Virus record (IMG/VR): IMGVR_UViG_3300010885_058021
Coordinates: 1 to 25,389 of that record
Direction: 5' to 3' (one strand)
DNA from: a virus
DNA: 25,389 bases
The translations under genes and the position numbers were made by a program. This document shows, piece by piece, positions 2,769 through 24,487 of this stretch. Under the pieces are notes generated by a model, which was not told the DNA's origin, searched no databases, and was given only the letters and a program-made list of their open reading frames with translations. Numbering within the stretch: the first letter of the stretch is position 1; the number at the start of each line of letters is the position of its first letter.

Positions 2769-4571
2769 TCAGAAGGTCTTGCTCAATGGCACGATAGTGC
2801 GTTGGCTGCTCTGTAATGGATTTTGATTGTTCATAGTGTTGCTAAAACTAACAGCAGACGGTGCACTGCTATTGCCCATGGAAATTGCCATGGTGGTCGT
2901 ACTGGATCCCTGGCGTATGTTTGGTCGAGCGTAGGTTTGTCCTGTGGCAGGTCGAGCACCTACCAGATAGTTTGGATATGTCATACCAGATTGGGTCTGA
3001 TATAATGCTAAGATGCTGGTACCAATTGGACTACCAATACCAGTGCAGGCGTCCCAGCCAGCAGTAGCAACATAGCCCACTGTATTGCCGCCGTGATTAT
3101 CACCTACTGTGATGTCATTGAATGCTGTAGCACTTGCCGTATACCATGTTGGATTTACAAAACCTATGCGGCTGCTGGTCATGCTGTTGAGCCTAGCCAT
3201 CATGCCACCCAACAATGGGGCCACTGCACTAGTACCTAAAAACGTTCCACTAGCATTAGTGATGCCATAATAGAAAGTGTATCCAGTGGCCATGGCACTG
3301 ACATCAGGAATGCTACGCCCAGTGAGAGTAACAGGGCTGCTCGGGGTAGGATAGGTCTTGCTGGTCAATCCTGTTTGCCAAGTAGGCACGCTGTATATGG
3401 TGCTTACGCCTCCGCCGCCGGCATATGATCCGCCTGCAGTGCCCCATGCTACTTCACTGGCTATAGTATAGTCATTGTTGATTGTAACAACGGTACCACC
3501 TGCGCCTATGACATATGGACTGGAGCCAGGATATTGCAAAGTATATGTTGGAGCTCCATTTATAGCACGGACTCCAAAATCACCAGTTGCTACGAAAGTG
3601 GTAATGCCCCTTACTATGGCAGCCTGCAGTGCAGTATCAAACTGTGTGTTGTTTCCGAACCAGTTGCTGTCGGTGGTTCCCCAGCTAATGCTTAGCACGC
3701 TGGGATTGTTGACCATGTCATTTGTAGCAGCTGTGATGCAATCAATGAACCCTTGGAAGCTGTTTGGAGCAAAATACATAGCTATGGTAGCAGCCGGAGC
3801 TACCGCACCAACGCAATAGATATCCAACATGACTTCGCCACTGCTGTTGATATCAGTTGGATCATTGACTCCGCCATCGACACTGACATCAACTACAGTT
3901 GGATTTGGCTGTCCTATCCTACCAAACGTGCTGGTCAGATTCTGTGTGGTCCAACCTCCGCCAAGCTCCACGATACCAACACAGGTATTAGCACCTTGGA
4001 CTAGATCACCGCCTGCAGCTCTAGGAAATTTGTAAGCTAGTGCTAGGTCGACAGGGGTTGGGCTTGAGATCAGATTGGGATCTATGTTGGTTACCATTGC
4101 TCCAACTGGAGGTGCATCTGGATCTAGTCTAGCATAGGATTCAAAAGTCAATGAATTATCGAGACCTAGCACCAGTTCTACCACGCTGTTGATCTCACTT
4201 GGTATGGTGATAGTTCCAGAGTGTGTGATATAGCTTCTTGAGCCTGTCGTAACGGTTTCTAGCTTTACAGCAAACAGTTCGTTCATCTGTCCAACATTAC
4301 CTTCGACTTTGACAGTGGCTATACCAGATCCAAACTCTATCACGGTCAAATCGTTGGCTACTGCCCAATCAACTACCAGCTTTATCTCATCCTCTACGCT
4401 GCCAAATTGATACACAAACTCGTCATGATCTAGCGCAGGATGGGTCCCGGCTATGACAGCATCTGCATACTCCTGCAGTGTCATGCCGTTCTCGTGACAA
4501 TCTCTCCTAAGATAGATGCTGATCAACAGCCTAGCATTGACATCTGCGAAGTTTCTGACAGGTAAGCTCAT
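2769..4571 (-). CDS. S53 family peptidase (sedolisin/kumamolisin-like) with pro-domain
   Basis: This 600-residue protein has the complete S53 architecture. Residues ~10-145 resemble the pro-kumamolisin activation domain (IYLRRDCH, MTLQEYADAVI, LTVIEF). The catalytic core follows: Glu246 and Asp250 in GEVMLDIYCVGAVAPAA, oxyanion Asp331 in VATGDFGV, and nucleophile Ser448 in LGTSAVAPLLGG. The calcium-site phrases FNDITVGDN (~484-492) and GWDACTGIGSP (~505-515) are also kept. S53 enzymes are acid-active serine-carboxyl endopeptidases that process their own pro-domain. There is no signal peptide, so it is not obviously exported alone. It starts 1 nt after the collagen-like gene, so a virion or tail-associated role is likely (inference). 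The last ~60 residues are Ser/Thr/Asn-rich and of unknown role. Confidence 0.93.
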   Translation of the reverse strand: MSLPVRNFADVNARLLISIYLRRDCHENGMTLQEYADAVIAGTHPALDHDEFVYQFGSVEDEIKLVVDWAVANDLTVIEFGSGIATVKVEGNVGQMNELFAVKLETVTTGSRSYITHSGTITIPSEINSVVELVLGLDNSLTFESYARLDPDAPPVGAMVTNIDPNLISSPTPVDLALAYKFPRAAGGDLVQGANTCVGIVELGGGWTTQNLTSTFGRIGQPNPTVVDVSVDGGVNDPTDINSSGEVMLDIYCVGAVAPAATIAMYFAPNSFQGFIDCITAATNDMVNNPSVLSISWGTTDSNWFGNNTQFDTALQAAIVRGITTFVATGDFGVRAINGAPTYTLQYPGSSPYVIGAGGTVVTINNDYTIASEVAWGTAGGSYAGGGGVSTIYSVPTWQTGLTSKTYPTPSSPVTLTGRSIPDVSAMATGYTFYYGITNASGTFLGTSAVAPLLGGMMARLNSMTSSRIGFVNPTWYTASATAFNDITVGDNHGGNTVGYVATAGWDACTGIGSPIGTSILALYQTQSGMTYPNYLVGARPATGQTYARPNIRQGSSTTTMAISMGNSSAPSAVSFSNTMNNQNPLQSSQRTIVPLSKTF

Positions 4572-4572
4572 G

Positions 4573-5418
4573 TTATACCTCGGTCTTTAACAGCGTCAAT
4601 GTGACAGTTATGGCCACAGAAGTATTACCAGTGTTTTGTACCTTGAGGGGTATGCTGGTAGTGGGAGGCGACTCGCTACTGAAGCCTGCTGCTGCTGGCG
4701 TGATAAGCTGGGTCACAGCTCCCGCTGATATGATTTCAGCTATCACGCCACTGCCTGGAGTTGGATTAGTTGATTGTGCTCTGCTAGCATCTGCAGTTCG
4801 TGCTGCTGTGCTGCTATAGACCGTTACCCATGCTGCATGATCAACCTGTATGCTGTATAGATTATAACCCTTGAATCCCGTGGCAGTCACTGCAGCATTT
4901 GATCCTGCTGCTAGAGTTGTAGTTGTTACGCTGACATTATTCCTACTAGAAACGCTGCCTGCACCAGTTGCCCCAGTTGCTCCTTGTGATCCGGTTGGAC
5001 CTGTAGCACCCATACCAGGACCAGTGGGACCATTCTGTCCGGTTGGACCAGTTGCTCCTGTGCCTACAGGACCAGTAGCACCTGCTGAGCCGCTAGCACC
5101 GGTTGGTCCGGTCAGTGACGATGCTGGTCCAGTTGGACCTATACCAGATGGCCCAGTTGGCCCAGTTACAGTTGATGCTGCCCCAGACGGGCCTGTGCGT
5201 CCAGTTGGGCCAGTCGACCCGGTATCACCTTTGCTGGCAGCTGTACCAGGTTGTCCAGTGGGCCCAGTGATGCTTGTTCCAGTGGGCCCAGTTATACCTC
5301 TGGCTCCAGTTGGTCCCTGCGTACCAGCTGTACCGCTCTGTCCTATTGCACCTGTCGCCCCAGTAACACCTCGAGCCCCTGTGGCACCAGTTGGGCCAGT
5401 GACATTGATGGCTGCCAT
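4573..5418 (-). CDS. Collagen-like (Gly-X-Y repeat) probable virion/tail protein
   Basis: 281 residues. About residues 7-150 are Gly-X-Y triplets, mostly GPT, GAT and GPS, with short interruptions, which should form a collagen-type triple helix. The C-terminal ~130 residues are a compact, beta-rich domain (Val/Thr-rich; [15 protein letters not shown]; ending [10 protein letters not shown]), a plausible trimerisation or receptor-facing domain. The start at 5418 is chosen because AAGGAG lies at a good distance upstream; a longer reading frame to 5478 lacks such a site. Collagen-like segments are common in phage tail fibres. It is the first gene of a minus-strand unit with the S53 peptidase. A GATAAATA box lies upstream. 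Confidence 0.9.
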
Positions 5419-5441
5419 GATGATCTCCTTTGTAGCTGAGA

Positions 5442-5449
5442 TATTTATC
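5442..5449 (-). promoter_or_regulatory. Possible T4-type late promoter box (GATAAATA)
   Basis: Reading the minus strand, GATAAATA matches the T4 late consensus TATAAATA in 7 of 8 positions and lies 23 nt upstream of the collagen-like start, leaving room for a short leader with the AAGGAG site. Late promoters of this type drive virion genes in T4-like phages. An 8-nt AT-rich match can occur by chance, so this is tentative. Confidence 0.4.
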
Positions 5450-5463
5450 GATACCTCCATATC

Positions 5464-5492
5464 TTGACAGTGGCACACAGACGCATTAAATA
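5464..5492 (+). promoter_or_regulatory. Candidate sigma-70 promoter for hsp20
   Basis: TTGACA (5464-5469), 17-nt spacer, TAAATA (5487-5492). The -35 is perfect and the -10 is weak. It lies in the divergent gap between the collagen-like gene and hsp20. Confidence 0.5.
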
Positions 5493-5520: not shown

Positions 5521-5554
5521 CTAGATAATGCTTCGCTTTAACAGGAGGTATCAA

Positions 5555-6034
5555 ATGCGAAACCAATCTACCTATCTATTGCCATCCATGGACGATTTCT
5601 TCAGAGATCTAAATCGATTCGCCATTGGATTTGAACCAATGATCACCAGGATCCACAGCCTGCATCCAAATCAAGCCGCAGGTTATCCGCCCTACAATCT
5701 TGAAAACGACGGTTCTACCTATCGTTTAGAACTAGCGGTAGCTGGATTCAAGATGGAAGAGCTAGAGATCTATCTAACCAACGATCGTGTGCTCATGGTC
5801 AGAGGCAGCAAAAGCACTGACCAAAGTGAGAGAAATTGGATCCATCGCGGCATTGCTGGTCGTGATTTTGAGCGTCAATTCACTCTAGCAGAGCACATCA
5901 AGGTAGTCAACGCCAAGCTGGAAGATGGCTTGCTGATCATTGAGCTGGAGCGCGAAGTGCCAGAGGCTACCAAAGGACGTGTGATTCCGATCAGCAACAG
6001 CACTGTCATTGACGTCACGTCTTCAGCAGAATGA
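5555..6034 (+). CDS. Hsp20/alpha-crystallin small heat-shock protein (IbpA-like)
   Basis: 159 residues. A small heat-shock chaperone that holds unfolding proteins without ATP. The alpha-crystallin domain spans roughly residues 45-140: YRLELAVAGFKMEELEIYL, the loop before RVLMVRGSK, WIHRGIAGRDFERQF, then LEDGLLIIELE, the hallmark beta-8/9 region. The C-terminal tail has RVIPI, similar to the I-x-I anchoring motif. The start at 5555 follows AGGAGG at a 6-nt gap; an ATG at 5528 lies upstream of that site and is rejected. Hsp20 genes are common in T4-like marine phages. It precedes clpS, which has its own promoter. Confidence 0.93.
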   Translation: MRNQSTYLLPSMDDFFRDLNRFAIGFEPMITRIHSLHPNQAAGYPPYNLENDGSTYRLELAVAGFKMEELEIYLTNDRVLMVRGSKSTDQSERNWIHRGIAGRDFERQFTLAEHIKVVNAKLEDGLLIIELEREVPEATKGRVIPISNSTVIDVTSSAE

Positions 6035-6087: not shown

Positions 6088-6399
6088 ATGGCCGAGACCA
6101 AGAAGCAAAATGTAGTCGCTGTGGTAGAACGTGTTGCCATGGCCCCTCCTCGCATGTGGAATGTATGGTTGGTAAATGATGACCAGACAACCATGGAATT
6201 CGTGGTACTTGTGCTCATGCAGATCTTCCATCGCAGCTTTGAAGAAGCGCAGGATATAATGATGCACATCCATACTAACGGACGCGGAATAGCAGGCACT
6301 TACAGCCATGAAGTGGCCACTCAAAAGCGCGACGAGACTGTTGCTATTGCTAGATCGAGCGGATTTCCACTGGTTGCAGAGCTAAATCCAGCAGAATAA
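6088..6399 (+). CDS. clpS: ClpS-like N-degron adaptor for Clp protease
   Basis: 103 residues, close to E. coli ClpS (106). ClpS binds proteins with destabilising N-terminal residues and delivers them to ClpAP. The pocket residues are kept: N30-D31 in WLVNDDQTTMEF, M36 next to it, and H62 in HIHTNGRGIAG. The N-terminal extension is divergent, as is usual. The strong AGGAGG site sits just upstream. ClpS normally partners ClpA, not ClpX, and neither clpA nor clpP is in the window. The phage copy therefore probably works with host ClpAP, either to redirect or to block N-degron degradation (inference). Confidence 0.93.
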   Translation: MAETKKQNVVAVVERVAMAPPRMWNVWLVNDDQTTMEFVVLVLMQIFHRSFEEAQDIMMHIHTNGRGIAGTYSHEVATQKRDETVAIARSSGFPLVAELNPAE

Positions 6400-6840: not shown

Positions 6841-6869
6841 AAGGGTTCCAGGAAACTGGGACCCTTTTT
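6841..6869 (+). terminator. Intrinsic terminator after HTH gene
   Basis: An 11-bp stem (6841-6851 with 6856-6866, one G-U pair) capped by a GAAA tetraloop and followed by a run of T to 6869. It has no T run on the other side, so it acts on plus-strand transcripts. It abuts the stop of the convergent cyclotransferase gene. Confidence 0.9.
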
Positions 6870-7324
6870 CATCTATATCTGTGTTTCAGCTCAGTGATAC
6901 GATCGTCTAATGCAGCGATTAGCTGCTGCATGGGTATGCTGTTTTCTCGATAGCCAGTGGCAACAAAATCCACATATTCTGGTGTAGGTGGCAGATCGCT
7001 GTGATGCTTGCCCAGCATCACGTAGGTCATGGCCTTGATTATCTTGCCGCGATATTCTATTGGTATGATCTTGTGTCTATATATCTTGTGATAACCTTCT
7101 ACCCAATCTAGCTTGTCCAGCTTCTGTACAGGGACAATCCATAAGACACCATGCACAGTGTCTCCTTTGGATTCTATCACGTTGCTGACATTTTCCAGCA
7201 CGTACCTGTGGTCTGGTAGATCAGCATGTCCTATAAGCTGGGCTTCTGGCACACGCTTGTACATCTCTTCGAGATTGGTATTGTGCCCATATGCAAAATA
7301 GGGTATGTGTTCCCAGGCTGCCAT
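6869..7324 (-). CDS. Gamma-glutamylcyclotransferase-like (AIG2/GGCT fold) protein
   Basis: 151 residues, the usual size of the family, whose members release 5-oxoproline from gamma-glutamyl compounds. The N-terminal YFAYGHNTN (9-17) is the YFAYGSN substrate loop. The predicted catalytic Glu is E76 in LDWVEGYHK, and a YRHKIIPI strand follows. The substrate is unknown: glutathione, gamma-glutamyl-amino acids or gamma-glutamylamines are all possible. It starts 5 nt after the Ntn hydrolase, so the two form a minus-strand unit. A second, divergent copy lies at 24068-24487. The loop has H where S is common, and the second copy has R there. Confidence 0.82.
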   Translation of the reverse strand: MAAWEHIPYFAYGHNTNLEEMYKRVPEAQLIGHADLPDHRYVLENVSNVIESKGDTVHGVLWIVPVQKLDKLDWVEGYHKIYRHKIIPIEYRGKIIKAMTYVMLGKHHSDLPPTPEYVDFVATGYRENSIPMQQLIAALDDRITELKHRYR

Positions 7325-8297: not shown

Positions 8298-8642
8298 ATG
8301 TCTGAAGAAATTAAGAACAAGATAATAGCCAATCTGCGCCAGGTTTATGATCCTGAGATCAGCACCAACATCTATGATCTTGGATTGATCTACAAGATCG
8401 ATCTTGATCACTTACCCAAAGCGCTAATAGAAATGACCTTGACTTCGGCATGGTGTCCCAGTGCAGAAGATATCATGCGTGATGCTGAAGAGGCTGGTAC
8501 AGTTGAAGGTGTTGACAAGTGCGAGATAAAGATAGTATGGACACCACAATGGGGACCGCACATGATGAGCGAAGAAGCACAGCTAGAGCTGAATATGATG
8601 CAGGATTTTGATGACAGATCAGGATGGGGGCCGCCCTATTGA
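8298..8642 (+). CDS. DUF59/MIP18 (SufT/PaaD-like) Fe-S cluster assembly factor
   Basis: 114 residues. Family members help load iron-sulfur clusters onto target enzymes. The family block DPEISTNIYDLGLIY spans 18-32, the reactive-Cys block MTLTSAWCPSAEDIM contains C53, and WTPQWGPHMMSEEAQLEL near 81-98 matches the W-x-P-W...MSEEA-LELG signature. The start sits at the predicted transcription start, so the mRNA may be leaderless. The stop overlaps the proposed TTG start of the first radical-SAM gene (TTGA). This places an Fe-S factor at the head of an operon of Fe-S enzymes; that it matures them is inference. Confidence 0.92.
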   Translation: MSEEIKNKIIANLRQVYDPEISTNIYDLGLIYKIDLDHLPKALIEMTLTSAWCPSAEDIMRDAEEAGTVEGVDKCEIKIVWTPQWGPHMMSEEAQLELNMMQDFDDRSGWGPPY

Positions 8643-9253
8643 ATACCATACACATTGAGCCCAGCACCAGATGCACGCTGTTGTGTCCTCAGTGCCCGAG
8701 GACTGAATATCTGGTAGATATTCAAATCCAGGATTGTGACATAGCATCCACTGTAGCAGCGTGCCACGGATTTGATGAGATACTGATGTGCGGTAACCAC
8801 GGGGATCCGATCTATCATGCAGAATTCCATGAGTTGTTAACTGCGCTGCGGGCTGATCAACCACATGTTGTTTTTGACATCATCACCAATGGTGCTTTCA
8901 GATCCGAACATTGGTGGCAAACCACTGCTGGTTTATTGCAAGACTTTGACCGCATTACCTTCAGCATCGATGGCATGCCAAATACCAACCATATCTATAG
9001 AGTAAACAGCAAATGGTCAACCATAGAGTTGGCGATTAAGACCCTAAGGCAACATGGACCTGTTAGATTGAAATTGATATGGAAGCACATCCTGTTTAGA
9101 TACAATGAGCACGAGGTCCAAGATGCGCTTGATATTGCTAAGTCTTTGGGATTTGATAAATTCACGTTGGTTGGCAGCGTGCGTAACGAACCAAATGAAC
9201 CATTAACACCTACCAAGACATTGGACAGCATAAGAGTACGACTGCATGCCTAA
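8639..9253 (+). CDS. Radical SAM core protein, copy 1 (split from SPASM-like partner)
   Basis: 204 residues from the TTG start proposed here; an ATG at 8624 would add five. TTG is preferred because it aligns exactly with the start of the second copy (NTIHIEP versus KSIHIEP) and overlaps the DUF59 stop as TTGA. The CX3CX2C [4Fe-4S]/SAM motif is RCTLLCPQCPR at the N-terminus. Other core marks are MCGNHGDP, DIITNGAF and FSIDGMPNTNH, the usual beta-strand motifs. The gene ends before any auxiliary-cluster domain; that part is encoded by the next ORF, whose ATG overlaps this stop in the string ATGCCTAA. Substrate unknown; peptide or sugar modification is possible. Confidence 0.88.
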   Translation: MNTIHIEPSTRCTLLCPQCPRTEYLVDIQIQDCDIASTVAACHGFDEILMCGNHGDPIYHAEFHELLTALRADQPHVVFDIITNGAFRSEHWWQTTAGLLQDFDRITFSIDGMPNTNHIYRVNSKWSTIELAIKTLRQHGPVRLKLIWKHILFRYNEHEVQDALDIAKSLGFDKFTLVGSVRNEPNEPLTPTKTLDSIRVRLHA

Positions 9254-9596
9254 GGTATTTCCACGCTGCAAAGCAGATCAGATATTACCTTACCTCAGCG
9301 CAGATGGCTATTTCTTTCCGTGCTGTTGGATAGCTAACGAACCCTACATCAAGGACGTGAAATCCTTCCTTGGTGATAGCTTTGCTACAATGGATGTTAA
9401 AGCTCACACCATCGCAGAGATCAAAGCTGGTGCAGGATGGAACAAGCTAGAAGCAAGCTGGGAGCAGGGTCTATGCTGGTCGTGCACGAGATTTTGTAAC
9501 CAAGATTACACAAAACTAGAAAATCCGCATCGGAATAAATATTTGCCTATCATACTAACGGAATCACGCAGCGATGATGAAAAGCATACATATTGA
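9246..9596 (+). CDS. SPASM-like auxiliary Fe-S partner of radical SAM copy 1
   Basis: 116 residues. It continues the preceding radical-SAM protein in a different frame. Cysteines lie in FPRCKAD, DGYFFPCCWIANEP and CWSCTRFCNQ, the layout of SPASM/twitch auxiliary-cluster domains that normally form the C-terminus of one radical-SAM polypeptide. The middle, FLGDSFATMDVKAHTIAEI, fits the domain's helix. The ATG overlaps the previous stop by 8 nt, so translation is probably by termination-reinitiation; frameshift fusion is less likely but possible. Its own end overlaps the next radical-SAM gene by 23 nt. Confidence 0.8.
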   Translation: MPKVFPRCKADQILPYLSADGYFFPCCWIANEPYIKDVKSFLGDSFATMDVKAHTIAEIKAGAGWNKLEASWEQGLCWSCTRFCNQDYTKLENPHRNKYLPIILTESRSDDEKHTY

Positions 9597-10191
9597 ACCA
9601 AGCAGCAGATGTACGCTTGGTTGTCCAGAGTGTCCTCGTACCTACAATCTAGATACGATTCCAATAGAAGATTGCGATATTCCCAGCATGGTTAGAGCAT
9701 GCAGAGGATTCAAAGAAATAGTCATGTGCGGCAATCACGGTGATCCGATATATCATGCTGAATTCCATGAACTATTACATAGATTACGCGAAGATCAACC
9801 AAGTGTTAGTATCACGATCGTAACCAATGGAGCGTTCAGGACAGAAAACTGGTGGAAACAGACAGCCAATCTTTTGAAACCAACTGACCATGTGATGTTC
9901 AGCATAGACGGCCTTCCCAGCAACAACCACATCTATCGTGTAAACAGCCGCTGGGATGGTATCGAGGCAGGCATACGCACTCTGAGAAACCATGCACCTG
10001 ATCAAATGTTGATGACATGGAAATGGATATTATTCCGTTATAACGAAAACGATGTAAAGCAAGGCAAGCAGATAGCCAGGGATCTAGGATTCAATAGATT
10101 TCTGTTGGTTCAAAGTGCCCGATACTCTGAAAAAGAATTATTCATACCTACCAAGAGTTTGCTTGAGATCTGGGAAGATGCCAATGTCTAA
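9574..10191 (+). CDS. Radical SAM core protein, copy 2
   Basis: 205 residues (two adjacent ATGs, 9574 and 9577). It is a clear paralogue of copy 1: GNHGDPIYHAEFHELL is identical, and TNGAF, HIYRVNS and LFRYNE are kept. The CX3CX2C motif is C13, C17, C20 (RCTLGCPECPR). FSIDGLPSNNH and WKWILFRYNEN complete the core. Sequence divergence from copy 1 is concentrated in the C-terminal third, so the two may act on different substrates. It begins inside the end of the previous SPASM-like gene, and its stop overlaps the next partner ATG as ATGTCTAA. Confidence 0.88.
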   Translation: MMKSIHIEPSSRCTLGCPECPRTYNLDTIPIEDCDIPSMVRACRGFKEIVMCGNHGDPIYHAEFHELLHRLREDQPSVSITIVTNGAFRTENWWKQTANLLKPTDHVMFSIDGLPSNNHIYRVNSRWDGIEAGIRTLRNHAPDQMLMTWKWILFRYNENDVKQGKQIARDLGFNRFLLVQSARYSEKELFIPTKSLLEIWEDANV

Positions 10192-10495
10192 GATATATCC
10201 ACGCTGCAAAACAGAATTTGCCCAACCATACATCAGTGCGCATGGATATTATTTCCCCTGCAGTTTGATTGGCACCGAACCTAATAGATCCGAATTAGAA
10301 GAATTTTTGGGCGATCTGTTTCAGACTTTTGACATAAAGAAAGTAGGATTAGCTGATGCTATACACGGTACCGGTATGCAGTTCTTGGAGGCTTCTTTTG
10401 AAACTAATCCACCCAAGGCATGCCGGTTCTTTTGTGGCACACCGATCACAGAAAACAGCATGGATCGCAATACAACAGTAAGAGGCAATCTGTAA
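10184..10495 (+). CDS. SPASM-like auxiliary Fe-S partner of radical SAM copy 2
   Basis: 103 residues. The ATG at 10184 is chosen because it aligns with the start of the first partner (MPKVFPRCK versus MSKIYPRCK); in-frame starts further upstream would run through the previous gene. Cysteines fall in YPRCKTE, GYYFPCSLIGTEP and KACRFFCGT. Compared with the first partner it has one Cys where that has CC, and fewer C-terminal Cys, so its cluster ligation may differ. LEEFLGDLFQTFDIKKVGL matches the partner's helix. It is followed by AAGGA and the cyclophilin-FkbM fusion gene 12 nt on. Confidence 0.78.
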   Translation: MSKIYPRCKTEFAQPYISAHGYYFPCSLIGTEPNRSELEEFLGDLFQTFDIKKVGLADAIHGTGMQFLEASFETNPPKACRFFCGTPITENSMDRNTTVRGNL

Positions 10496-10507: not shown

Positions 10508-11716
10508 ATGCCCAATCCTATATTGAAGATGGAACTAGCCCATGGCGATGTGCTCATAGAGTGCTATCCAGATAAAGCTCCGAACCACGTGGCGCAGATA
10601 ATCCGCCAGGCCAATTCTGGACTTTATGACGACACTGACTTCCACCGAGTGATTGAAGGGTTCATGGCACAAGGCGGCTGGACCAAGCAACCTCTGCCGC
10701 AGCTTCAAGCAGAATTCAATGATGTCTCTCACACAGAAGGCATCTGCAGCATGGCGCGTACCAATGATCCTAACAGTGCCAGCGATCAGTTCTTTATCTG
10801 CTTTGGTAATGCTCAGTTCCTAGATAGACAATACACAGTGTGGGGCAAAGTGATCTACGGAATGCAGCATGTGCATGCGATCACTCGCGGCGAACCGCCG
10901 CAGAATCCTAGCAAGATAGTGAAGATGCGGCAGCTGAGCATGCACGCTGTAGAATCTCTACAACCCATGGCTGATGGATCGGTTGTGTACAAGAATACCA
11001 TCAACGGTCCGTTGATCATGTTGAAAAACGATTGGTGGATCAAGCATGGAATGGAAAACATTGATCTGATCAATCAGGAACTGCATCAGTTCAATCAATT
11101 GATCAAGCTCGCCAGGCAGCTACGTCCAGAGCTTACTAGCGTGATTGACGGTGGATCCAACATGGGATCGTGGACCATGCCTCTGGCACGGGCAAACAGA
11201 GACATTGAATTCCATACGTTTGAAGTGCAGAAATTGGTGTACTACATCAGCTGTGGCAACTTCGCACTCAACGGTGTGACCAACGTCTATGCTAACTGGG
11301 CCGGCTTGACCGACCAAGAAGGTCTGATTGCCCTTCCGGTACCAAACTATGACAGCTCGCAGAACTTTGGATCATTTGAAGTTGCACCCCCTTTTGCCAA
11401 CAGCGATTGCGTGCTCACCTATACAGGCAAGATTGATCTAGTTAGGACGGTGACCATAGACAGCTTAGAGCTGAGTCCTGTGTTGATAAAGTTGGACATA
11501 GAAGGCATGGAATATCGCGCACTGAACGGCGGCATCAATACCATTGATTCACATCTGCCAATAGTTTGGTGCGAGAGCCAAAAGAGTGATCCGGTTGCAG
11601 TCACTGGTTTCTTTGTAAACAGAGGCTACGTGCTCAGCTTGGCCATAGAAGGGCACTGGTTGTTCATCCCACCTTGGTTGCAGGGTAATCCAAGCTTAGA
11701 ATCAATATTGGGATAA
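10508..11716 (+). CDS. Cyclophilin peptidyl-prolyl isomerase fused to FkbM-family methyltransferase
   Basis: 402 residues, two domains. Residues 1-145 are a cyclophilin, which isomerises Xaa-Pro bonds: active-site R47, F52 and Q55 in FHRVIEGFMAQGGW, SDQFFICFGNAQFLD at 92-106, then YTVWGKVIYGMQ. Residues ~210-380 are an FkbM-type SAM-dependent methyltransferase: SVIDGGSNMGSW at 211-222 is the SAM-binding loop and IKLDIEGMEYRALNGG at 327-342 is the family signature. The frame is continuous, and the linker (~146-205) has no stop or repeat, so this is a true fusion. FkbM proteins O-methylate sugars or small molecules. It follows the radical-SAM pairs with an AAGGA site; a joint role is inference. 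Confidence 0.92.
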   Translation: MPNPILKMELAHGDVLIECYPDKAPNHVAQIIRQANSGLYDDTDFHRVIEGFMAQGGWTKQPLPQLQAEFNDVSHTEGICSMARTNDPNSASDQFFICFGNAQFLDRQYTVWGKVIYGMQHVHAITRGEPPQNPSKIVKMRQLSMHAVESLQPMADGSVVYKNTINGPLIMLKNDWWIKHGMENIDLINQELHQFNQLIKLARQLRPELTSVIDGGSNMGSWTMPLARANRDIEFHTFEVQKLVYYISCGNFALNGVTNVYANWAGLTDQEGLIALPVPNYDSSQNFGSFEVAPPFANSDCVLTYTGKIDLVRTVTIDSLELSPVLIKLDIEGMEYRALNGGINTIDSHLPIVWCESQKSDPVAVTGFFVNRGYVLSLAIEGHWLFIPPWLQGNPSLESILG

Positions 11717-11724
11717 CACAAACA

Positions 11725-12156
11725 ATGTGGTGGGAGACGACCAAGCTGGAAGACATGGATCAGCAGCAGTGGGAGAGCCTCTGTGATGGGTGCGGCCGCT
11801 GCTGCTTGAAAAAAGCTTGGCGAGGTAGCGAAATAGAAGTGACTTGCATTGCCTGCAGATTGATGGATGTCACCACTGCTAGCTGCTCAGATTATCACAA
11901 TAGACATCAGAAAGTACACGAATGCATCAAACTTCATCCCGGTAATGTAGGTCATCCTCTGCTGCCGAGGACCTGTGCATATCTCCTGATACACCAAGGC
12001 AAACCGTTGGAATGGTGGCATCCTTTGGTAAGCGGCAGTAAGGAGACTGTAAAGCAAGCTGGTATCAGCATCATAGGCGATATCACACACACTGAGCGCA
12101 CCGTGAGCCTGGCCAAGATGGCACTTTTCAAGTCGTTGGATCGAGCAATACCTTGA
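11725..12156 (+). CDS. YcgN/UPF0260 family cysteine-cluster protein
   Basis: 143 residues, matching the proteobacterial YcgN (UPF0260) family over its length: an N-terminal WE-T-K-L--M, WESLCDGCGRCCL at 16-28, ACRLMDVTTASCSDY at 43-57, a CIKL turn, LPRTCAYLLIHQGKPLEWWHPL at ~80-101, then GSKE. Cysteines 20, 23, 26, 27, 41, 44, 54, 67 and 84 are a probable metal- or Fe-S-binding set. The biochemical role of the family is not established. The gene sits 8 nt after the cyclophilin-FkbM gene, in the radical-SAM operon. Rare in phages as far as I know; close similarity to bacterial copies suggests host acquisition. Confidence 0.9.
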   Translation: MWWETTKLEDMDQQQWESLCDGCGRCCLKKAWRGSEIEVTCIACRLMDVTTASCSDYHNRHQKVHECIKLHPGNVGHPLLPRTCAYLLIHQGKPLEWWHPLVSGSKETVKQAGISIIGDITHTERTVSLAKMALFKSLDRAIP

Positions 12157-12211: not shown

Positions 12212-12240
12212 GCACAATCTTGCTTTATGAGGAGATAGAA

Positions 12241-14097
12241 ATGAGCAAAGTGATCGGTATTGACCTTGGAACCACCAACAGCTGCGTGGCTGTGATAGAA
12301 GGTGGCAAGGCCAAAGTTCTAGAGAACGCAGAAGGCGCTCGCACCACACCCAGCATCGTGGGATTCAAGGACGGCGAAACGCTGGTGGGTGCTCCTGCCA
12401 AGCGACAGGCAGTAACCAACCCAACCAACACCCTGCATGCGGTAAAGCGCCTCATAGGCCGCCGCTACGAAGATGACAGCGTGCAAAAAGACAAGAAGCT
12501 GCTGAGCTATGCCATCGTGGCAGCTGCCAACGGTGACGCCTGGGTGGAAGTTGACGGCAAGAAGATGAGCCCTAGTGAGGTATCAGCCAAGATCCTCACC
12601 AAGATGAAAGAGACTGCAGAGCGCTATCTTGGTACCACGGTAGATCAAGCAGTGATCACTGTACCAGCCTACTTCAACGACAGCCAGAGACAGGCTACCA
12701 AGGACGCAGGCAAGATTGCAGGCATGGAAGTGCTGCGCATCATCAACGAACCAACTGCGGCTGCGCTGGCATATGGACTGGACAAAAAGCAAGCTGGCAA
12801 GATTGCAGTTTACGATCTTGGCGGTGGTACCTTTGACGTTTCAATACTTGAACTGGGCGATGGCGTGTTTGAAGTGCTCAGCACCAACGGTGATACTCAG
12901 CTGGGCGGCGAAGACTTTGACCTGCGCATTGTTGACTTCCTGGCAGATACATTCAAGAAGGAACAGGGCATCGATCTCCGCAAGGATAACATGGCACTGC
13001 AGCGCCTCAAGGAAGCTGCAGAGAAGGCCAAGATAGAGCTGTCAAGCAGCGCAAGCACTGATGTTAACCTGCCATACATCACAGCTGACAAGGATGGCCC
13101 CAAGCATCTAACGGTCACACTGTCACGCAGCAAGCTGGAAAGCTTGGTTGATGACCTGGTCACCCGCACGCAGGGACCATGCCGCAAGGCTCTGGCAGAT
13201 GCAGGCCTACAGGCTGGGGAAATCAGCGAAGTCATCCTCGTTGGTGGTCAGACACGCATGCCCAGGGTTCAACAGGCTGTGAAAGACATCTTCAAGCGTG
13301 ATCCCAGCCAGGGCGTTAACCCAGACGAAGTGGTTGCCATGGGTGCTGCTATCCAAGGCGGGGTGCTACAGGGCGACGTCAAGGACGTGTTGTTGCTGGA
13401 CGTGACTCCACTATCACTGGGAATCGAGACACTAGGCGGCGTGTTTACCAAACTGATCGAGCGCAACACAACCATCCCTACCAAGAAGAGCCAAGTGTTC
13501 TCTACTGCTGCTGATAACCAGCCAGCTGTGAGCATCGCTGTGTTTCAAGGCGAACGTCAGATAGCACGCGATAACAAGAGCTTGGCCAACTTCGAGCTCA
13601 CTGGCATTGCACCAGCACCTCGCGGCATGCCTCAGATCGAAGTTACCTTTGACATTGATGCCAACGGTATAGTGCATGTCAGTGCCAAGGACCAAGCCAC
13701 TGGCAAGGAACAGAAGATAGCGATCCAGAGCAGCGGTGGGCTCAGTGATGCTGACATCGAACGCATGGTTCGCGAAGCTGAAGAAAACGCTGAAGCTGAC
13801 AAGCGTAAGCGTGAAGTCATCGAAACACGTAACGGTGCTGAGACTCAGATCCACATGGCTGAAAAGCAGCTTAAAGAACATGAAGACAAGATCCCAGCTG
13901 AACTCAAGGCTGAGGTTGAAGCAGCTATCACTGAAGCACGTAGTGCTATCGCAGGTGATGATCTCGATGCTATGAAGCCAGTGTTAGAACGTTTTGGCCA
14001 AAAGCTGATGAAGATCGGTGAGATCGTCTACAAGGCACAGAGCACGCCTCCTAGCCCTGACGAGCCAATTGATGTAGAAGCTAAGCCAGCTGAGTGA
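12241..14097 (+). CDS. dnaK: Molecular chaperone DnaK (Hsp70)
   Basis: 618 residues (E. coli DnaK has 638). A full Hsp70: [10 protein letters not shown] phosphate loop at the N-terminus, [21 protein letters not shown], the [11 protein letters not shown] block and the linker [14 protein letters not shown], then the substrate domain and a helical lid. The C-terminal tail is short and ends [11 protein letters not shown], without the usual EEV-type bacterial ending. Start: ATG 12241 after GAGGAG; an upstream TTG frame is rejected. The sequence reads as proteobacterial, for example [13 protein letters not shown], which is alphaproteobacterial in style (from memory). No dnaJ or grpE is present, so it must use host co-chaperones. 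It leads a unit with a nucleotidyltransferase and a ferredoxin-NADP reductase. Confidence 0.98.
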
Positions 14098-20917: not shown

Positions 20918-22039
20918 ATGGATGACATAGAGCACTACTGTGCTGCACCATTCGTGCACATCGCGATCGATAATGCCAGTCCCGACACCTACAGGCCCTG
21001 CTGTCTATGGCAGGGCCCTTCACAGTCCGCAGCCACTTCAGCTATGGCAGCTTTTGAAAGCCAGGACATGGCGGACCTGCGCAAACAAATGCTGTCTGGG
21101 CTGCCTCATCAAGGTTGCAACATCTGCCATGCCCACGAAGCAGCATCCGGTGACAGCTTGCGTCTGGGTTTCAACAGGCAGTACGGCTGCGTAGATCAAG
21201 CTGATCTGCAAGACATTGAATTCAATCTAGGCAACTTATGCAACATGCGCTGCAGGATGTGCAGCAGCATCAGCAGCAGCCGTTGGATAGCTGATGATGA
21301 AGTGCTAGGTCGCAAGAGCACCAAGCTGACCAGACGCAAGCTCGCACAGCTGGGGGTTGACATAGCCAAACTGAAAAAGATCAAGTTCATAGGCGGAGAG
21401 ATAACACTTGAGCAAGACGAAGTCAAGCATGTGCTTGATTCTATCAAACAGCAGTGCGGTGGGTTAGGCCATCTAGCCGTGGAGATAATCACCAATGGCA
21501 TGCTGCGATTGGACGATGGTATCATGCAGATGCTGCTGTCCTGTCGGTCAGTGGACATGGTGCTGAGCTTAGATGGCATGGCTACATCAAACGATTACCA
21601 ACGCAGCGAAGGCGATTGGTCAGTGATCACTGCCACCGCACGCTACTATGATGGGCTACGTGGTTCAGTGTTCAATCCTGGTATCATCAGCACCATAAGC
21701 ATGCTGACCATAGCAGATGCAGTTGATCTCATGGAATGGGTAACCAATGAACTGCCCCAAACATGGCACGTGGCCAACGCATTAGCTTGGCCGTCTGAGC
21801 TGGCAGTTCGCAATCTACCGCAGGCCTATAAAGCAAAGATGCGCCACAAATTGCTTGACTGGGTTCCATCAGTGAACAAATCTAGGCATGATGAGATACG
21901 GGGGCGGCTGCTGCAAGCATTGGATTTAGATGCCAACTGCGACCTCGCACAGGTGCAGCAGCATCTAACACTGCTCGATCAATTGCGCGGCGAAAGATTG
22001 CTTGATACATTACCGGAACTGCATTCTGCTATTTTCTGA
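20918..22039 (+). CDS. Radical SAM protein with N-terminal twitch-like Cys region, copy A
   Basis: 373 residues. The N-terminal ~75 residues hold C8 (HYCAAPF), C28-C29 (RPCC) and C67/C70 (GCNICHAHE), the Cys layout of twitch-domain radical-SAM proteins, which would bind an auxiliary cluster. The radical-SAM motif CX3CX2C is C108, C112, C115 (LCNMRCRMC). IKFIGGEITLE is the GGE motif contacting SAM, and EIITNGML and VLSLDGM follow. The C-terminus ends RLLDTLPELHSAI. It is a paralogue of the gene at 22838. It follows rIIA by 7 nt with no clear ribosome site. Substrate unknown. Confidence 0.9.
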   Translation: MDDIEHYCAAPFVHIAIDNASPDTYRPCCLWQGPSQSAATSAMAAFESQDMADLRKQMLSGLPHQGCNICHAHEAASGDSLRLGFNRQYGCVDQADLQDIEFNLGNLCNMRCRMCSSISSSRWIADDEVLGRKSTKLTRRKLAQLGVDIAKLKKIKFIGGEITLEQDEVKHVLDSIKQQCGGLGHLAVEIITNGMLRLDDGIMQMLLSCRSVDMVLSLDGMATSNDYQRSEGDWSVITATARYYDGLRGSVFNPGIISTISMLTIADAVDLMEWVTNELPQTWHVANALAWPSELAVRNLPQAYKAKMRHKLLDWVPSVNKSRHDEIRGRLLQALDLDANCDLAQVQQHLTLLDQLRGERLLDTLPELHSAIF

Positions 22040-22105: not shown

Positions 22106-22819
22106 ATGGAACTAACTCAAGACATGGTCAAGGTGCTGCAGGCAGCTAGGGTTCACTTTTGCATACCCTGCTACGGCGGCCAGATCAACGAAGGCACCTT
22201 CATCAGCATGCTGAAATACATGGCCACGGCACAGCGCCTTGGGTTGAATTTCACGATTGATACCATGGTAAACGAAAGCCTCGTTTGCCGCGCTCGCAAC
22301 AGCTTGGTTGCCAAGATGCTGTTCTTTGAACCCAAGAGCACGCATCTCATGTTCGTGGACGCAGACATCGGCTTCGAACCAGAAGAGATCTTCAAGCTGA
22401 TCATCGCAGATCGCGACGTGGTCGGCGGCTTGTATCCCAAGAAGGCACTGCCCATCAGCTACGTGGTCAACAAGGTACCTGGTGCTGAGAAAGAAGGCAA
22501 CTTGGTGGAAGTGGCTAACCTGGGCACAGGCTTCATGATGATCAAGCGCCATGTGCTGGAGCAGATGATCGCCAAGCATCCAGAGCTGCACTACGTGGAC
22601 AGCATCGGATTGGATCCCAAGTACGATCCTTTCAAGTATGCGCTGTTTGACACAGAGATCGACAACGACAGCAAGGAATATCTGTCAGAAGACTACACCT
22701 TCTGCAAGCGCTGGCGTGCAATGGGCGGCAAGATCTGGGCAGACCTGACCATCACGCTGAACCACATAGGCTACTTCACCTTCCGAGGTGATGCTACTCA
22801 GCTGCAACCACATCTCTGA
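22106..22819 (+). CDS. Family 2-like glycosyltransferase, phage type
   Basis: 237 residues. Opens with HFCIPCYGGQINEGTFISML and has VCRARNSLVAKML and the metal-binding DxD in MFVDADIGF (D85-A-D87), the hallmark of GT-A glycosyltransferases; LGTGFMMIKR and SEDYTFCKRWRAMG resemble the acceptor/catalytic region. Similar proteins are frequent in T4-like marine phages. GGAG lies 8 nt upstream of the ATG. It is flanked on both sides by paralogous radical-SAM genes, so these may modify the same target, a virion protein or host glycan (inference). Codon use looks richer in C/G than in its neighbours. Confidence 0.88.
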   Translation: MELTQDMVKVLQAARVHFCIPCYGGQINEGTFISMLKYMATAQRLGLNFTIDTMVNESLVCRARNSLVAKMLFFEPKSTHLMFVDADIGFEPEEIFKLIIADRDVVGGLYPKKALPISYVVNKVPGAEKEGNLVEVANLGTGFMMIKRHVLEQMIAKHPELHYVDSIGLDPKYDPFKYALFDTEIDNDSKEYLSEDYTFCKRWRAMGGKIWADLTITLNHIGYFTFRGDATQLQPHL

Positions 22820-22837: not shown

Positions 22838-24022
22838 ATGATCAGTGAAACATTCTGTGCTGCGCCGTGGACCGTGCACTGCATCAATGCCGACGGCACT
22901 GCTGGCGTGTGCTGTGTAAACAGCAGCACGCTAACCAATAGCAACGATCATGCAGGTTTGATAAACGGATCTGCTGTGCGGCAGATGAAGCTGGACATGC
23001 TATCCGGAAAACCAGCAGTAGGCTGCGAGAAATGCTATGATCATGAAGCAGCAGGTGTGTACAGCCTACGCAATCTCTACAATGACCTAACCGCTGATGT
23101 GCTAGATCCTTCTAGGTTATCTGATGACGATTACGAGAATCGCACATGGTACGACCTCAGCCTCAGCAACAAATGCAATCAGAAGTGCAGGATCTGCGGA
23201 CCATATAACAGCACAGCATGGGCCAAAGATGCAGCTGCTATAGCAGATCTCAAATGGACGCATGTGAATTGGCGCGAGCTAGATGATGTTCTGATTGACA
23301 GCAGCAGTGCCATACCCGGCATACTGGCCAGCATGCAAGCAGCAACATCTCCGTTCAGGATAGAGCTCAAGGGTGGTGAACCTCTGTACATGGAAAGCAG
23401 CAGGGCTTTGATCAGCAGCATGATCAAGCTTGGTCTGCACGAACGCACGGAAGAGCTACGCATCATCACCAATGGCACGCAGCATGACGCTGGATTACTG
23501 GAGATGCTATCTGCGTTCCCTGCCATAGACATGGCGCTTAGCGTAGATGCCACTGGTAGGTTGCACGAATACACTCGTGGCACCAACATGACCTGGGACC
23601 AGTGCAGGCGCAGCTGGGAAGAAGTGACCAGCTTGCCCAACATCAAGCGCTTGCGCATCAGCAACACAGTTTATGCCTACACAATATTCGATCTGCCCAA
23701 TCTGCGCCAATGGGCAGCCAGCGAATTTGGCCGCACCGTAGACATGGCAGATGCCATGCTGCACAAGCCACGTTATCTACATGCAAAGATACTGCCTCAG
23801 GTATTGCGTGACCAAGCTGTAGCGCTGTTACCAGCTGGCGATGACATGATAGCCGTGATATCTGGTCAACCAACCACGGCTGAATTTGGTAACAAGCAAG
23901 CGTTAGAAATCACTCTGCAACAGTTGCGATCTCAGTTCAAGATCTTCACCGAGCGCATGGACAGCCTAAGAAGAGAGAATCTCTTAGATATTGTGCCCGA
24001 ATTGTCGGAGATGATGAGATAA
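22838..24022 (+). CDS. Radical SAM protein with N-terminal twitch-like Cys region, copy B
   Basis: 394 residues and the same plan as the gene at 20918. N-terminal Cys: C7 (FCAAPW), C15, C25-C26 (GVCC) and C63/C66 (GCEKCYDHEAA). The radical-SAM motif is C113, C117, C120 (NKCNQKCRIC). ELKGGEPLYM is the GGE motif, RIITNGTQHD the next core strand, and MALSVDAT the following one. The C-terminus ENLLDIVPELSEMM matches copy A's ending. It starts 18 nt after the glycosyltransferase. Similarity to copy A is clear in motifs but low overall, so the duplication is old or the targets differ. Substrate unknown. Confidence 0.9.
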   Translation: MISETFCAAPWTVHCINADGTAGVCCVNSSTLTNSNDHAGLINGSAVRQMKLDMLSGKPAVGCEKCYDHEAAGVYSLRNLYNDLTADVLDPSRLSDDDYENRTWYDLSLSNKCNQKCRICGPYNSTAWAKDAAAIADLKWTHVNWRELDDVLIDSSSAIPGILASMQAATSPFRIELKGGEPLYMESSRALISSMIKLGLHERTEELRIITNGTQHDAGLLEMLSAFPAIDMALSVDATGRLHEYTRGTNMTWDQCRRSWEEVTSLPNIKRLRISNTVYAYTIFDLPNLRQWAASEFGRTVDMADAMLHKPRYLHAKILPQVLRDQAVALLPAGDDMIAVISGQPTTAEFGNKQALEITLQQLRSQFKIFTERMDSLRRENLLDIVPELSEMMR

Positions 24023-24032
24023 TCTCTGTCTG

Positions 24033-24061
24033 TTGACGCTGTGCTACATACCTGCTACAAT
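24033..24061 (+). promoter_or_regulatory. Sigma-70 promoter giving a near-leaderless mRNA
   Basis: TTGACG (24033-24038), 17-nt spacer ending TGC, TACAAT (24056-24061). The ATG at 24068 lies 6 nt after the -10, at the expected transcription start. Confidence 0.65.
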
Positions 24062-24067
24062 GTACGC

Positions 24068-24487
24068 ATGACACATTATTACTTTGCCTATGGGCGCAAC
24101 ACCAACATAAAGACCATGCAGGAACGCTGCCCGCGAGCAGTGTGTCTTGGGCCCAGCTGGGTTGATGGGTATGTGTTCCGCTGGCGCGGTGTAGCTGATT
24201 TAGATATGTCCCCAGATGACTACGTGATAGGTGTGCTCTGGGAACTCAACGATGGTGATCTGGCTGCGCTGGATTGGTACGAAGGTTTTCCGCGCAAATA
24301 CTTCAGGCAGCGAGTGATAGCCAAGACCAACCAGCAGGAATATACAAGCTGGGCCTACATGATGGTCAATCAGGGCAACGAGTCGCTGCCTGGAGACGAG
24401 TATCGCACTGCGCTGTTTGAAGGATATGATCAAAACCATCTAAGCACAGATCAGATGCTAGTGGGCCTCAAACGCCTAAACGGTTAG
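24068..24487 (+). CDS. Gamma-glutamylcyclotransferase-like protein, second copy
   Basis: 139 residues, paralogue of the gene at 6869-7324. The YYFAYGRNTN loop is at the N-terminus and the predicted catalytic E72 lies in LDWYEGFPRKYF. An earlier in-frame ATG (24041) lies upstream of the -10 box, so the start is placed at 24068. The mRNA would then be leaderless. Two copies with different neighbours (an Ntn hydrolase at the first, a radical-SAM/glycosyltransferase set here) suggest different substrates. The stop overlaps the stop of the convergent LamG-like gene. Confidence 0.8.
   Translation: MTHYYFAYGRNTNIKTMQERCPRAVCLGPSWVDGYVFRWRGVADLDMSPDDYVIGVLWELNDGDLAALDWYEGFPRKYFRQRVIAKTNQQEYTSWAYMMVNQGNESLPGDEYRTALFEGYDQNHLSTDQMLVGLKRLNG

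Follow-up and report, generated by a model that had tools for sequence, protein, structure and literature searches.

Gene organization of the locus

In the window, which is the whole 25,389-nucleotide stretch of viral DNA that was analysed, a radical-SAM protein twice ends just before a Cys-rich domain, which is encoded by a second, overlapping gene in another frame. This arrangement raises the question whether each gene pair encodes a two-subunit enzyme or a single polypeptide chain that is interrupted by read error, decay or frameshifting. The window record, which is from IMG/VR, encodes an rIIA-like protein (phrog_612, E 3e-107), which fits a T4-like phage.

All genes of the locus are located on the plus strand. 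Core subunit 1, which is assigned as a radical-SAM barrel with CX3CX2C from its PF04055 match, motif and modelled barrel, is encoded at 8624-9253. Its start is either ATG at 8624 or TTG at 8639, of which the latter aligns with the start of core subunit 2, and its stop is TAA at 9251-9253. Auxiliary subunit 1 (9246-9596) starts with ATG at 9246 within the end of core gene 1, and the sequence shared by the two genes is the 8-nt overlap ATGCCTAA (9246-9253). Core subunit 2 (9574-10191) starts with ATG at 9574 and has its stop at 10189-10191. Auxiliary subunit 2 (10184-10495) begins at 10184, likewise within the end of its core gene, with the 8-nt overlap ATGTCTAA (10184-10191). The end of auxiliary gene 1 and the start of core gene 2 share 23 nt. 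Directly upstream of core gene 1, and overlapping it, lies a SufT/PaaD-like Fe-S assembly gene at 8298-8642 (PF01883, E 1.2e-13; TIGR02945, E 2.3e-32, below the cut-off of this profile), the product of which is possibly a maturation factor. Each of the five genes between 8298, where the SufT-like gene starts, and the end of auxiliary gene 2 overlaps its neighbour head to tail. Promoter and terminator scans gave results at the chance level.

The two tandem pairs and their 8-nt overlaps are thus found as originally noted. Both pairs are intact, and in both the auxiliary gene is in the +1 frame relative to the core gene. The cores are 58% and the auxiliaries ~40% identical to each other, and therefore the pair has been duplicated as a unit, as had been claimed; the same 8-nt overlap in the two tandem duplicates reflects common descent. 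An 8-nt overlap is enriched in core/auxiliary pairs (14/52 clusters at 70% identity, vs 14/231 other adjacent same-strand gene pairs of the related loci), but it is an ordinary class among neighbouring genes, for which 4 nt is the commonest overlap. An overlap of any length is present in 48 of the 52 core/auxiliary clusters and 151 of the 231 other pairs; the p values of this comparison ignore relatedness.

Core and auxiliary subunits

Core 2 matches PF04055 with 31.2 bits (E 2.9e-7), above the gathering score of 29.5, and core 1 with 26.4 bits (E 9e-6), just under it. Both window cores have CX3CX2C in the first loop (CTLLCPQC in core 1, CTLGCPEC in core 2), and CxxxCxxC is invariant across eight aligned split cores. 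In the model of the joined pair described below, core 1 forms a partial (beta/alpha)6 barrel of six strands alternating with helices. The best NCBIfam profile for the cores is TIGR04317, a tungsten cofactor oxidoreductase radical SAM maturase (E 1.5e-10 and 5.6e-11), of which the N-terminal half is matched by the cores and the C-terminal half by the auxiliary of locus L090. This maturase is a single chain, however, and the window cores (40.8 and 42.1 bits) are far under its curated cut-off of 380 bits.

The Cys-rich domain was expected to be SPASM-like. A separate ORF with a Cys domain does follow each core in another frame, but it is of the twitch (single-cluster) type, not a seven-Cys SPASM domain. 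A SPASM domain has the motif CX9-15GX4C-gap-CX2CX5CX3C-gap-C, with seven Cys and two clusters, whereas a twitch domain is a truncated SPASM domain with one cluster, in which CX9-15GX4C is followed by two later Cys (PMC6231123). The window auxiliaries contain PRC-X12-GYFFPC or GYYFPC plus CX3C, and the resulting CX12GX4C and CX3C pattern is found in 50 of the 52 clusters. Four Cys are invariant in the first eight auxiliaries aligned, with a nearly constant Gly and no other invariant Cys, and the same four Cys and the Gly (C8, G21, C26, C80 and C84 in auxiliary 1) are invariant or nearly so when auxiliaries 1 and 2 are aligned with 33 others. Because only four Cys are conserved, as compared with seven in SPASM, and the seven-Cys motif is absent, the auxiliary is classed from its sequence as a twitch domain with one predicted Fe-S cluster. 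Two auxiliaries encoded upstream of their cores, L147 (286-576) and L162 (410-706), lack the first cluster Cys, as if a coordination site were open.

Matches to the Pfam SPASM profile (PF13186, gathering score 21.5) are variable: auxiliary 1 scores 14.6 bits, below the gathering score, auxiliary 2 does not match, and 21 of the 35 aligned auxiliaries match at E<0.01. Of 95 tails of fused relatives, 91 are matched by an HMM of the auxiliaries (E<1e-3), and profile-profile comparison of auxiliaries and fused tails gives a probability of 98.7 (E 2.8e-16). The second ORFs therefore do match auxiliary-cluster domains.

Spread of split pairs

Relatives were collected by IMG/VR scans, and HMMs for core and auxiliary were run over all loci. 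Core alignments were needed as queries: core 1 alone gave no matches in the viral-contig scan, auxiliary sequences retrieved few loci from viral contigs and none in a genome scan, and an alignment of all auxiliaries is too divergent to serve as a query. Split pairs were retrieved from 94 contigs and number 115, of which 86 are distinct, in 52 clusters at 70% identity. They occur on many phage contigs that are independent of one another and in one isolated phage; a few further contigs are from MAGs and are perhaps partly viral. The pair of a Bdellovibrionaceae MAG (L174) is located in a chromosomal-looking region, where a gene that by eye appears to encode arginyl-tRNA synthetase lies ~2 kb away. 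A tblastn search of isolated phages gave a split pair only in Pelagibacter phage Mosig EXVC030M, in which Mosig_00084 (211 aa) and Mosig_00085 (112 aa, annotated as hypothetical) share the 8-nt overlap ATGGCTAA, despite a core identity of only 24%.

The core ORFs fall into two groups by the length of their tails, 0-56 aa (split) or 87-178 aa. The majority of relatives in the first scan are fused single chains. In single-chain phage proteins (median length 354 aa), such as those of L009-L027 and gp080 of Campylobacter phage CP220, core and twitch tail are homologous to the split pairs, but are fused in one chain, unlike the window pairs. Of the cores first listed without an auxiliary, those of the L152 group have it beyond an inserted gene and those of the L171 group inside a longer ORF; the core of L040 reaches the contig end, and L060, L061 and L124 have cores without an assigned auxiliary. 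No core/auxiliary pair was seen in L005, where the match does not coincide with a long ORF on the same strand, and this locus was discarded.

Origin of the split

The predominance of single chains among the relatives of the first scan raises the possibility that a gene for one chain has been broken by sequencing error or has recently decayed. The chance of this is negligible, because the split is kept in 52 clusters and in the isolated phage Mosig, both window pairs are intact, and both halves are under purifying selection, as judged from dN/dS values of ~0.11 for the core and ~0.15 for the auxiliary between window pair 1 and L004. The homologues are thus not all continuous genes, and the view that the split is ancestral rather than an error or decay is strongly supported.

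A programmed +1 frameshift at the overlap, by which the two ORFs would be one gene producing one fused protein, is suggested by the position of both window auxiliaries in the +1 frame exactly at the core stop and by the existence of fused relatives. However, a comparison of the junctions of homologues makes it very unlikely. The auxiliary is in one relative frame in 26 clusters and in the other in 20, the overlap is 8, 4, 11, 14, 17 nt or of other lengths, and no slippery string is conserved. ATG is retained at the junction in 83 of 86 distinct auxiliaries (the start nearest the junction being chosen), and the auxiliary gene comes first in six distinct pairs, for example in L053 (8-nt overlap) and L092 (11-nt overlap). 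In L152, L153, L155 and L156, a whole gene, MazG-like as named by eye, sits between auxiliary and core. In L171-L173, the core is separate, and the protein to which the auxiliary is fused shares 67% identity with the product of the gene directly after the auxiliary gene in L181. Because frame and order vary, a gene is inserted and the auxiliary is fused elsewhere, read error, decay and programmed frameshifting are excluded as general explanations. Some members may nevertheless make a fused product.

The core tree requires at least 13 changes of reading frame and at least four of gene order. Core and twitch have undergone repeated fission or fusion. A single origin of the split was considered and is rejected on the same tree (AU p 4e-73). 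A functional split into two subunits, as originally proposed, is strongly supported at the level of sequence by the spread of the pairs, the varying frame and order, the selection on both genes and the single-chain relatives.

Structure prediction and probable partnership of the subunits

For structure prediction, window pair 1 was joined as one artificial chain by reading GCCT as one step, with an alignment of fused relatives, separate cores and separate auxiliaries. The model has a mean pLDDT of 86.8 and a pTM of 0.85, and its Foldseek matches include BlsE, SkfB, anSME, MoaA, SuiB, PqqE, SpeY, DesII and viperin. The joined chain folds well; because the chain is joined and fused homologues favour docking, the model indicates compatibility of the core and auxiliary folds, not their association. 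Auxiliary 1 alone is also predicted to fold (pLDDT 86.9), and a fold search with it gave no significant structural match, the top seven being all anSME. The twitch radical-SAM enzymes MoaA, BtrN, SkfB and SpeY, of which SkfB (TMq 0.59), MoaA and SpeY are matched by the joined model, likewise consist of a CX3CX2C barrel and a twitch domain with CX9-15GX4C and later Cys. They are composed of one chain, whereas the twitch domain has a gene of its own in each of the 115 split pairs.

The auxiliary could instead be an Fe-S protein in its own right, acting as an electron carrier or as a partner common to several phage radical-SAM enzymes. Its gene is separate from that of the core, may precede or follow it, and sometimes has another gene in between; in L171-L173 the auxiliary is fused to another protein, and intermolecular electron transfer is known for PapB (PMC10470005). 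This explanation is improbable, because the auxiliary shares homology with the twitch domain that is covalently attached in relatives, and nearly every core has its own auxiliary, even where pairs lie side by side. Core and auxiliary distances correlate with r=0.82 (0 of 2000 permutations), of which linkage alone gives some correlation. Within contigs that have two pairs, own partners co-diverge in 12 of 13 (positive correlation of differences), a comparison in which the window pairs are uninformative. Because the distances correlate and own partners co-diverge, dedicated core/auxiliary partners are favoured. The suggestion of a shared or swappable auxiliary is less supported by these data, since almost all cores are adjacent to an auxiliary of their own, with which they co-diverge.

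Proposed enzyme

Each pair thus very probably encodes a two-subunit, heteromeric radical-SAM enzyme of the twitch type, for which association, cluster content and a role in electron transfer are inferred. In the core subunit (~210 aa), which would be a (beta/alpha)6 barrel, CX3CX2C would bind the [4Fe-4S] cluster that cleaves SAM. The small subunit (~115 aa) would be the twitch domain that forms the C-terminus of the same chain in relatives, with one auxiliary Fe-S cluster predicted on its four Cys. It probably docks at the site occupied by the covalent twitch domain, and there probably either accepts or returns an electron, or binds substrate. The two subunits would be made in step by translational coupling, because the end of one gene extends a few bases past the start of the next. 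A more radical form of this proposal, in which the auxiliary is dissociable, so that it binds the core reversibly or connects it to another enzyme, and which would represent a widespread, undescribed heteromeric radical-SAM class with intermolecular electron return by design, is rather unlikely; the link to another enzyme is suggested by the fusion of the auxiliary to the neighbouring glycosyltransferase-like gene in L171-L173. The fused ORF of L171 (4643-5573; also in L172 and L173) has the auxiliary followed by a glycosyltransferase-like C-terminal part, which is the separate next gene in L181 (3504-4100).

LipS1 and LipS2 are both radical-SAM-type proteins, rather than a core plus a twitch domain. 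They belong to a different family from the split pairs. Together they form a lipoyl synthase, for which two proteins are likewise needed in one radical-SAM reaction (PMC9585515).

Gene neighbourhood and possible substrate

The commonest neighbours at 45 split loci are a DegT aminotransferase (25 loci), an unknown 283-aa protein (23), another radical-SAM protein (20), a GDSL-like protein (16), a nitroreductase (15), a carbamoyltransferase (12), a methyltransferase (9) and a QueC-like PP-loop protein (8). The window also encodes an FkbM domain, an HldE-like nucleotidyltransferase, a glycosyltransferase-like protein and a flavin/NAD oxidoreductase. Host-recognition regions of pelagimyophages contain LPS genes and radical-SAM cassettes (PMC7029224). 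A T4-like marine virus is reported to have 12 radical-SAM genes and paaD, with split genes not mentioned in the section consulted (PMC5332604). The substrate might be a sugar, or a sugar nucleotide, that is used for glycans of the cell surface or the virion, an assignment that we make tentatively. With similar reserve, the reaction might be oxidation or rearrangement of this sugar or sugar nucleotide, by analogy with twitch dehydrogenases of the BtrN/SpeY type.

Action on a peptide or protein instead, as in RiPP-like modification or metalloenzyme maturation, is unlikely, though not remotely so. Many characterised SPASM/twitch enzymes modify peptides, and the closest NCBIfam profile is the maturase TIGR04317, matched far under its cut-off. 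However, the split loci have sugar-cassette neighbours, BlsE, SpeY and DesII are among the structural matches, and the pelagimyophage regions combine LPS and radical-SAM genes (PMC7029224); short of a systematic search, no precursor peptide was noticed.

Several other genes were observed. The QueC-like PP-loop ATPases near split pairs have an SGG(A/L)DSA motif (L123, 1332-2066; L092, 3027-3848; L008, 2026-2694; 8/45 loci). Right after the window pairs, a cyclophilin is fused to an FkbM methyltransferase (10508-11716); the cyclophilin is encoded alone in L004 (5366-5818). Two more radical-SAM proteins of the window (20918-22039 and 22838-24022) are NF033640 single chains with an N-terminal twitch domain, and flank a glycosyltransferase-like phrog_1574 protein (22106-22819). 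This one phage fragment also encodes a protein-quality-control set of ClpX, IbpA-like Hsp20, ClpS and DnaK (1212-2468, 5528-6034, 6088-6399 and 12220-14097), a kumamolisin-type prodomain protein adjoining a collagen-like Gly-X-Y protein (2769-4571 and 4573-5478, both on the minus strand), two gamma-glutamylcyclotransferase/AIG2-like proteins (6869-7324, minus strand; 24041-24487, plus strand) and a YcgN-family Cys-cluster protein that matches phrog_33999 (11725-12156).

Implications

In the open full-text literature that was searched, a separately encoded twitch or SPASM subunit does not appear, and LipS1/LipS2 is the nearest two-protein precedent met there. The split core/twitch pair is apparently a two-gene variant of known twitch radical-SAM enzymes that is widespread in marine phages. 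If so, core-only annotations in these phages are incomplete, and small 'hypothetical' genes such as Mosig_00085 are the missing enzyme halves. The role of auxiliary clusters in SPASM/twitch enzymes is still to be settled (PMC9012708, PMC10470005). These clusters have so far been studied in single chains, and a natural two-subunit version would allow the cluster to be added, omitted, titrated or swapped.
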